Shown here piece after piece: positions 54,404 through 56,806 of a stretch of DNA of 64,000 bases. The DNA lies in the NCBI RefSeq assembly GCF_014696355.1, contig NZ_JACJQA010000048.1, positions 1-64,000 on the forward strand, given 5' to 3'. How positions within the stretch are numbered: the stretch's first letter is position 1; each line of letters begins with the position of its first letter. The stretch is from Pseudanabaena sp. FACHB-1998. Lineage in GTDB: Bacteria; Cyanobacteriota; Cyanobacteriia; Pseudanabaenales; Pseudanabaenaceae. The notes beneath the pieces were generated by a model that saw nothing but the letters and a program-made list of their open reading frames with translations, was not told the DNA's origin and did not search any database. The translations under genes were made by a program, and so were the position numbers.

Positions 54404-56806
54404 CTATATATTAATGGCGATCGCAATCTCCTCACCTTCATACTTAGTAGGGTCAATAAACTTCCCTTGTATAACTTGTCCATTGACCAGCATCTGTTTA
54501 ACCCCACTATGATTAGTTACGGTGAGCGAGAGAGTCTTGCCGCGAAACTTGCGTTTTGCCGTAAATCCAGACCATTCACTCGGAATTTTGGGATCGATGA
54601 TCATCCCTGTAAATGTTGGCTGAAATCCTAGGATGTAATCAATGCCGATGCGTAACATCCATACGGCTGTACCTGTGAGCCATGAATGGCTTGCCTGACC
54701 TTGAGTTTCATGATCAGGACTGGTGACATATTCAGGATAAACATAGGGTTCAGTCTCAAAGCGATCGCATTTTGCATCAGTCGCCTGTGAGGAATTAATC
54801 GGCATCATGCGGCGATAGATTTCCCAAGCAAATTCCGTATCACCATTGAGAATGGAAGCTAGCACAAACCATGAGGAGGCATGGTTAAACACTGCGCCAT
54901 TTTCTTTCTTTCCGGGGACGCAACGACTGATTAAGCCAACCGTGTCGTCAATTTCCGTAAAGGAAGGCGCAACGATTTGCATTCCAAAGGGAGTCGCTAG
55001 ATATTCACGACTACTTGCCATCGCTTTATCAGCGCGATCGCTGGGTGCGAGTTCAGAAATAACCGCCCATGATTGGGCATTGAGGAAGATTTTGCCCTGA
55101 GTTGCCGCCGATACCCCAATCGGTTCGCCATTGTCACGGAAGGCGCGTAAATACCATTCACCATCCCAACAGATATCACTAGTTACTTGACGCAAATGCT
55201 CATAAAACTTCTGGAATCGATCAAGAGCTTCGCGATCGCCTTGTTGTTCGCAGACTTGCCATGATTTTTTCAGTACATAGCCCAAAAAGAACGCACCCCA
55301 AGTGGTTTCACCCTTGCCCTGTGAGCCAACATGGTCGAGAGTATCATTCCAATCGCCTGTAAAAATGCGCGGCATTCCGCGTTCGCCTGTATTAGCGATC
55401 GCAAAGTCTAGCGCTCTTACTAAATGCTCATAGACTGTCCCTGAAGTCTCATCGTGGTAAGGAACTACTTCTTCTAAAATCGAAAAATCACCAGTCTCTT
55501 TGAGATATTCGACAATGCCAAAGGGAATCCAAAGGGGGGTGTCGGAATGATTGGTGCGTTCGCCTGTATTGGTTAACACAAAATAGTTATGTAGAGTGGA
55601 ACCGTCCTTAAATTGGAAGTTGAGCGCTTTAATCAACCGTTCCCGCACTCTTGCAGGATCAACCATGACCACACCAAGAATATCTTGGAAGCGATCGCGC
55701 ATTCCCGTCCCAAATAGCAAACCGCCGTGATAATAGCCTGAATTTCGTGCCATATCGAAAGTTACAGCCGCCTGATACTGATTCCAGACATTGAGCATCG
55801 CATTAAATGCTTCATCGGGTGTTTGCACCTGCACGCAGGACAAATGGGCATCCCATTTTTGTTTAAGTTGGAGGAATTGGCGATCCATCTTGCTCCCCTC
55901 TCCTGCGGGAGAGGGGCTGGGGGTGAGGGTGGGACTTTCTCCCTTTGGCGCAATCTCCAAAGTTACCGCAAAATCCACAGAACCATTCGCTGCCAAGCTA
56001 ACCTTTGATTGCAAAGCCACCACAGGATCACCCGCCGTGATTTCCGTATTCTGCATCACCCCCGTTTCTACCGCTACAGGATTTGCTTCCGATCGCCATC
56101 TCCCGATAAAAGTATCGAGACTGCTATCAAAGCCAGCGATCGGCAAACTCTGCGAAAAATAGATCTGATACTTCCAATCAATATTCGGTTGCTTAACAGA
56201 AACCCCTTTATTCAAAACCCAATAGCGGCGCGTAGCGACCAAAGCTTGCAAATCTTGATCAAAATGAATATCCGTGAAATGTTTATCATTCGGTTGATTG
56301 ATTTGATCATTGAGAGCATTCCCCATCAACAATTCCAAAAATGAATAAATCTCTAAATCGCGAGTCTCTCCTGAAAGTTCGGTTAATTTCACGCGCCAAA
56401 CTTCAGCATTGGTATCAGTCGGAACGAAGTAGGTAATTTCACCACGAATTCCATTGATTTCCGTCGTGATTTTTGTATATCCCTGTCCATGCCGACATTC
56501 ATAAAAGTCATATTTTAAATCAATTGTCGGAGCCCAACTCAGCGACCAATATTTCCCCGTTGCACCATCTTTGACCATCACATAACGACCGGGGCGATCC
56601 CAAGGCAGACAGTTATAGCGCATTCGACTGATGCGATTATCCCGTGGCGATTCTAAAAAGCTAAAGCCGCCGCCTGTATGGGAAATTAGCCCTGCATACT
56701 GGCTATTCCACATATAGTTAAACCAAGGGCGCGGGGTGCGCGGATTTGTAATCACAAATTCCCGATAATCTTCGGTGTAATAGCCGTACTGGTTTGCGAT
56801 CGCCAC
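54404..56806 (-). CDS. GH94 family glycoside phosphorylase-like protein
   Basis: An 800-residue cellobiose/chitobiose-phosphorylase-like protein. An N-terminal beta-sandwich (about 1-285) has Y-G-Y-Y-T-E-D-Y-R-E-F, SHTGGGFSFLESPRDNRISR and PWDRPGRYV. A helical linker and an alpha6/alpha6 barrel follow with FGTGMRDRFQDILG, the catalytic acid in TGDWNDTLDH (about 483) and GYHGGL-like YYHGGLLFG. Such enzymes split beta-glycosides with phosphate; the substrate is not clear, and cyclic glucan synthase-like activity is an alternative. Residues about 293-305 (TLTPSPSPAGEGS) are encoded by an inserted palindromic repeat at the linker. Confidence 0.85.
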   Translation of the reverse strand: MAIANQYGYYTEDYREFVITNPRTPRPWFNYMWNSQYAGLISHTGGGFSFLESPRDNRISRMRYNCLPWDRPGRYVMVKDGATGKYWSLSWAPTIDLKYDFYECRHGQGYTKITTEINGIRGEITYFVPTDTNAEVWRVKLTELSGETRDLEIYSFLELLMGNALNDQINQPNDKHFTDIHFDQDLQALVATRRYWVLNKGVSVKQPNIDWKYQIYFSQSLPIAGFDSSLDTFIGRWRSEANPVAVETGVMQNTEITAGDPVVALQSKVSLAANGSVDFAVTLEIAPKGESPTLTPSPSPAGEGSKMDRQFLQLKQKWDAHLSCVQVQTPDEAFNAMLNVWNQYQAAVTFDMARNSGYYHGGLLFGTGMRDRFQDILGVVMVDPARVRERLIKALNFQFKDGSTLHNYFVLTNTGERTNHSDTPLWIPFGIVEYLKETGDFSILEEVVPYHDETSGTVYEHLVRALDFAIANTGERGMPRIFTGDWNDTLDHVGSQGKGETTWGAFFLGYVLKKSWQVCEQQGDREALDRFQKFYEHLRQVTSDICWDGEWYLRAFRDNGEPIGVSAATQGKIFLNAQSWAVISELAPSDRADKAMASSREYLATPFGMQIVAPSFTEIDDTVGLISRCVPGKKENGAVFNHASSWFVLASILNGDTEFAWEIYRRMMPINSSQATDAKCDRFETEPYVYPEYVTSPDHETQGQASHSWLTGTAVWMLRIGIDYILGFQPTFTGMIIDPKIPSEWSGFTAKRKFRGKTLSLTVTNHSGVKQMLVNGQVIQGKFIDPTKYEGEEIAIAINI
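55893..55930. repeat. In-frame palindromic repeat inside the GH94 gene
   Basis: The core CCCCTCTCCTGCGGGAGAGG (55895-) is a hairpin followed by GGCTGGGGGTGAGGGT. Read on the minus strand it gives TLTPSPSPAGEGS, a peptide that recurs in unrelated proteins of several phyla. It lies at a domain junction and keeps the frame. Confidence 0.75.

Follow-up and report, generated by a model that had tools for sequence, protein, structure and literature searches.

The GH94 glycoside phosphorylase-like gene of Pseudanabaena sp. FACHB-1998 carries a palindromic repeat that is read in frame. This raises the question of where the repeat came from and how it became part of an enzyme. The most probable answer, to which we give a probability of roughly 0.85, is that a mobile palindrome, small and non-autonomous and here called family A, left a copy in the loop between two protein domains. 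The window, the whole stretch of DNA that was analysed, is 64,000 nucleotides long and contains the following features at this locus:

54404-56806, minus strand: GH94 glycoside phosphorylase-like gene, an 800-aa ORF with a GTG start (Pfam PF17167 and PF06165)
55958-56734, minus strand: GH94 beta-supersandwich domain, residues 25-283, N-terminal to the insert (Pfam)
55892-55930, minus strand: family-A palindrome insert, in-frame reading TLTPSPSPAGEGS, residues 293-305 (DNA and orthologue comparison)
55917-55928, minus strand: unpaired conserved 5' tag of the element, CCTCACCCCCAG, mostly CCTCACCCCTAG in intergenic copies (comparison of genomic copies)
55895-55916, no strand assigned: hairpin with arms 55895-55903 and 55908-55916 and a 4-nt loop (palindrome search and folding)
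54626-55855, minus strand: GH94 catalytic domain, residues 318-727, C-terminal to the insert (Pfam)

The insert occupies 39 bp, or 13 codons, between the two GH94 domains. Its minus strand reads ACC CTC ACC CCC AGC CCC TCT CCC GCA GGA GAG GGG AGC, which is translated as TLTPSPSPAGEGS. The earlier note had placed an in-frame palindrome at 55893-55930; CCCCTCTCCTGCGGGAGAGGGGCTGGGGGTGAGGGT is indeed present there, and sequence, arms and translation agree, with 55892-55930 as the exact span of the peptide. The arms are perfect over 9 bp, and the insert folds as single-stranded DNA with -10.6 kcal/mol (z -3.5). A chance origin of the core is excluded, since the 21-mer has 0 matches in dinucleotide shuffles of the window, and the genome holds 46 matches to it (at most two mismatches) compared with 0 for a reversed control pattern.

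Both GH94 domains exceed the curated Pfam cut-off (PF06165, 241 bits; PF17167, 401 bits), and the closest solved structures are those of cellobiose phosphorylases. In an AlphaFold2 model (mean pLDDT 76), residues 288-299 form a loop between the last strand (276-287) and a helix (300-322), in agreement with the proposed position at the junction of beta-sandwich and helical linker. The tail of the insert peptide is predicted to begin this helix. Judging from the open reading frame, the peptide should be translated, and its role is most probably that of a spacer and nothing more.

Family A has the consensus CCTCACCCC(T/C)AG followed by the stem CCCCTCTCC ... GGAGAGGGG. Eight copies of the 21-nt core in the genome are exact, and 25 of the 44 copies examined lie outside any long ORF, as expected by the earlier note, which had called for a count of the repeat and regarded the linker as a mobile palindrome put to use. 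The tag beside the stem is CTAG in 30 of these 44 copies and of the CCAG/CCTG type in 14. Many intergenic CTAG copies have a longer form with AAGAC...GTCTT flanks in common, which bears on whether family A is a MITE, a longer element with outer inverted repeats; the GH94 copy does not have these flanks. Each of the 26 Pseudanabaena genomes searched contains family A, with 2-100 copies (1-mismatch pattern), and in a sample of 386 genomes from the phylum, 78 have exact copies of a degenerate core. Its distribution is patchy across cyanobacteria and extends to Proteobacteria and Bacteroidota. On replicons of a plasmid collection, copies with 85-97% identity to the element occur in cyanobacteria, Cupriavidus (23 places), Sulfitobacter, Vitreoscilla, Xanthomonas, Methylobacterium and Prevotella, which bears out at the DNA level the earlier note's statement that the peptide is present in several bacterial phyla.

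The GH94 gene is one of many unrelated genes into which family A is inserted in frame. With a stop-free stretch of at least 250 aa, a threshold of our choice, as the criterion, 19 of the 44 copies examined in this genome and 22 of 57 in a congener (G005) are in frame in an ORF. In the first genome, the host ORFs are mostly recognisable conserved genes, among them uvrA, mnmE, mfd, cobG, recJ, cobN, leuS, uvrC, polA and genes for an RqcH-like protein and a glycosyltransferase; the hosts in G005 include ligA, recJ, uvrC, mutL, cobB and a gene for a UvrD/PcrA-like helicase. The peptide inserted in uvrA recurs in G005. Within the genus, MnmE and UvrC each have a site that is clearly filled in some species and empty in others. 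In UvrC, an A-derived peptide lies between RFRKY and FPDVVMIDG in nine genomes, including that of the window, and is absent in the other congeners examined. In MnmE, A-derived peptides follow NKIDL in many congeners, and seven (G004, G014, G023, G001, G002, G013, G009) have a short unrelated sequence instead.

The two tag types are distributed differently. CTAG-core copies are mostly intergenic, and CCAG/CCTG-core copies lie mostly within ORFs: 13 of 14 CCAG/CCTG-type copies compared with 6 of 30 CTAG copies in the genome of the window (Fisher p 6e-6), and 14 of 16 compared with 8 of 41 in G005 (p 3e-6). DNA repair genes make up 5 of 17 in-frame host ORFs in the former (L001, L004, L018, L172, L175) and 6 of 17 in the latter (L241, L242, L250, L252, L264, L271); a bias towards repair genes is only a rough impression from these two genomes.

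The history of the GH94 linker was followed in an alignment of 25 congeneric orthologues, including that of the window (G000). Apart from the C-terminus, internal indels are confined to the linker (alignment columns 287-353), and every orthologue has a palindrome-derived peptide there, from family A, from a second family B, or from both. Family A stands in the orientation of the window in G000, G022 and G011, in degenerate form in G017, and reversed in G007, G006 and G002. Family B, CCCCCCTTNNNAAGGGGGG, is translated as PPTPLVKGG or similar in 12 species; in five others (G001, G008, G003, G005, G009) B is followed by inverted B, with the translation SPPLLRGAGGD or similar. In G021, A and B directly adjoin in this order. 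Family B is dispersed as well, with about 16 places in the genome of the window. The stems in the linker are perfect, GC-rich and 7-10 bp long in most orthologues; in G010, G012, G014 and G019, the B hairpin has decayed, yet the peptide is retained.

Among the 24 other congeners, the peptide of the window is near-intact only in G022 and G011, degenerate in G017 and accompanied by B in G021. Outside the genus, six cyanobacteria of related genera and about 60 further relatives have no palindrome peptide in the GH94 linker; the linkers are ordinary in other genera of the family and in relatives that belong to Ignavibacteria, Bacteroidota and other groups. The alignment and the repeat count suggested by the earlier note thus gave neither of the two results named there as contrary, a peptide conserved in all GH94 orthologues and a lack of free copies. 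The idea that a mobile palindrome became a linker holds, but A probably replaced or joined an older palindrome instead of entering an empty linker, since most congeners have B at this site and A is followed by B in one species. None of the 25 congeneric orthologues has an empty linker, so that an insertion of A is visible only as a replacement and a target-site duplication cannot be read. Several palindrome families turn over in the linker, and this one position of the enzyme has been rebuilt by mobile DNA time and again, with different palindromes across 25 species.

These states suggest a sequence of events. B may have entered the linker in the ancestor of the genus, and A may have been inserted later beside it, a state that G021 would retain; on the GH94 tree, G021 is the first branch of the genus, albeit with weak support. 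A copy of family A landing in the loop between the two domains would survive because the loop tolerates additional Pro, Ser and Gly residues and the frame has no stop. A deletion between short GGGGRGC repeats could then have removed B, or alleles could have been exchanged by recombination. As the linker sequences stand, a deletion from GGGGAGC to GGGGGGC that removes B would yield the linker of the window.

Recombination is also the basis of the most serious alternative, according to which no new insertions took place and homologous recombination shuffled a small set of old linker alleles with palindromes among Pseudanabaena species. The six linker states require 11 Fitch changes on the GH94 tree, compared with a mean of 13.1 and a minimum of 10 after shuffling, and several nodes of this tree are weakly supported. 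Such near-random scatter implies frequent turnover or exchange and could stem from interspecies recombination instead of fresh insertions. The identical hairpins of G000, G022 and G011 and flanks in common, such as GESP and KIIEIVD, fit this account too. However, the two orientations of A, the A+B tandem and the combination of B with inverted B require several structural events, and MnmE and UvrC behave alike and have empty sites. We regard shuffling as the sole process as rather unlikely; it accounts for the spread of the palindromes, not for their origin, and is compatible with insertion.

If family A was inserted as a mobile palindrome, the next question is what moves it. An ordinary REP element moved by a host RAYT (TnpA-REP, a Y1 transposase) would match in size and hairpin shape. 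Intragenic REPs are on record (PMC3733652), and the genome has two Y1_Tnp (RAYT-like) genes (L057 and L058, on contigs 27 and 23). Both, however, lie between inverted repeats of the GGGCAGAGCATTCCCGC type, which form a separate repeat family, and no A core (up to four mismatches) was found within about 1.5 kb of either. In addition, the tag adjoining the stem is CTAG or CCAG, and GTAG is absent from this position in the 44 copies examined. An ordinary REP is therefore an improbable identity for the insert, and the RAYTs of this genome were rejected as mobilisers of family A on account of the different repeat at their borders.

Another candidate mobiliser is suggested by the neighbours of A copies. 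In two A-bearing ORFs, one in this genome (L007) and one in G005 (L276), a DUF559 endonuclease domain adjoins the A copies. The genus was therefore searched for PF04480, and of 44 strong matches, 25 are embedded in ORFs of at least 400 aa and 19 are free-standing. An A core (up to three mismatches) lies within 400 bp of 16 of the 25 embedded domains, on both sides in 10 cases, compared with 0 of the 19 free-standing ones. The chance expectation is about 0.8 percent per domain, and Fisher's test gives p 5e-6, although many of the embedded domains are orthologues of each other, so that p-values overstate their independence. By our reading, the A-bordered cases represent about seven host types. 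Of the nine embedded domains without an A core, the two that were read (L296, L304) are bordered by other palindrome-like peptides. DUF559 is a Vsr-like endonuclease domain, and its in-frame embedding in host proteins invites comparison with Vsr-like homing endonucleases.

According to Pfam, the hosts of these cassettes are restriction-modification or related proteins. The Type_ISP_C match in L285 and the MmeI_Mtase match in L296 each fall into two parts, which fits a cassette that interrupts its host. Unlike in homing endonucleases, no intein or intron domain around DUF559 was reported by Pfam; GC-rich palindromes form the borders instead. In-frame DUF559 domains with GC-rich palindrome borders are found in the genus (L007/L322, L285-L293, L300, L301, L310, L320, L324, L325) and elsewhere in the phylum (L365-L376). 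Twelve cassettes, hand-chosen mostly for long frames, were taken from other lineages within the phylum; all have Pro/Gly-rich palindrome-like peptides at their borders, most with A cores or near-cores. Eight free-standing DUF559 domains from other lineages give a mixed picture, several of them having A or near-A copies close by. The co-location suggests that the DUF559 cassette bordered by the same palindromes, and not the resident RAYTs, may mobilise family A, a weaker part of the proposed mechanism. A tentative extension is that the bordered cassettes are a mobile system that inserts into proteins in frame, mostly those of restriction-modification, without self-splicing, and that the dispersed palindromes, the GH94 copy included, are its non-autonomous derivatives. 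No paper on a link between DUF559 and palindromes was found in the literature searched, a search with most subscription journals outside its scope.

The remaining alternatives do without mobility. A regulatory hairpin, such as a terminator or mRNA stability element, selected within the gene would agree with the stability of the fold, but the family-A hairpin has no match in Rfam, and in some species the hairpin decays and the peptide stays; this explanation is very improbable. Convergence on a Pro/Gly-rich linker by point mutation is hardly credible and is refuted at the DNA level: low-complexity peptides are common in inter-domain loops, but the 21-nt core equals other genomic copies exactly, including synonymous positions and hairpin, and both strands of one element are used in different species.

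Among known systems, the small dispersed repeats of Nostoc are credited to Elhai et al. (2008) in PMC3116915. Such repeats of cyanobacteria are very small and mobile, reportedly with nested insertions; family A would be comparable to them in size, mobility and host group. The earlier note had compared the insert with the RPEs of Rickettsia, and the comparison is right for the behaviour: both are mobile palindromes that lie in frame within unrelated conserved genes, are translated, and often occupy tolerant places. It fails for the tag. RPEs differ in sequence and carry a CGTC end tag (PMC3733652), which is absent from the genomic copies of family A compared, and the host of family A is a free-living cyanobacterium.

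The GTAG/CGTC-tagged REPs described by Di Nocera et al. (2013, PMC3733652) resemble family A in being dispersed, GC-rich hairpins of 20-40 bp, one end of which carries a short unpaired tag. The same paper describes Rickettsia RPEs and intragenic REPs leaning to DNA repair genes (UvrA, PolA, RecBCD), comparable to the copies found here in UvrA, UvrC, Mfd, RecJ, PolA, LigA and MutL. Unlike those REPs, family A has neither tag, and no RAYT association was found. The described diversity of TnpA-REP includes cyanobacterial subclasses (PMC6006769). A further difference is the recurrent replacement of palindromes at one protein site, for which the accessible part of PMC3733652 mentions a parallel only in recB, where X. 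campestris and X. oryzae have different REPs at about the same site. Intragenic REP and RPE insertion is already known; what looks new is the turnover in the linker and the link to DUF559.

With one linker in 25 species and parallel filled and empty sites in MnmE and UvrC, the genus offers a natural, replicated record of mobile DNA becoming protein, in which the cost and movement of palindrome insertions can be tested. Should DUF559 prove to be the mobiliser, a role would be assigned to a large family of nucleases whose annotation is unknown function, and the recurring Pro/Gly-rich peptides in many bacterial proteins would be explained.

Two minor observations concern the GH94 gene itself. Its closest relatives found outside the family are from Ignavibacteria and Bacteroidota, at about 60-70% identity, which suggests gene transfer. 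Directly after the insert, five GH94 loci (L032, L033, L036, L037, L038) have a perfect AT-rich palindrome with 10-15 bp arms, for example ATTATTGAAATAGTTGATAACTATTTCAATAAT, and other species have a similar but imperfect sequence at this site; the perfect form looks like the product of template-switch correction.
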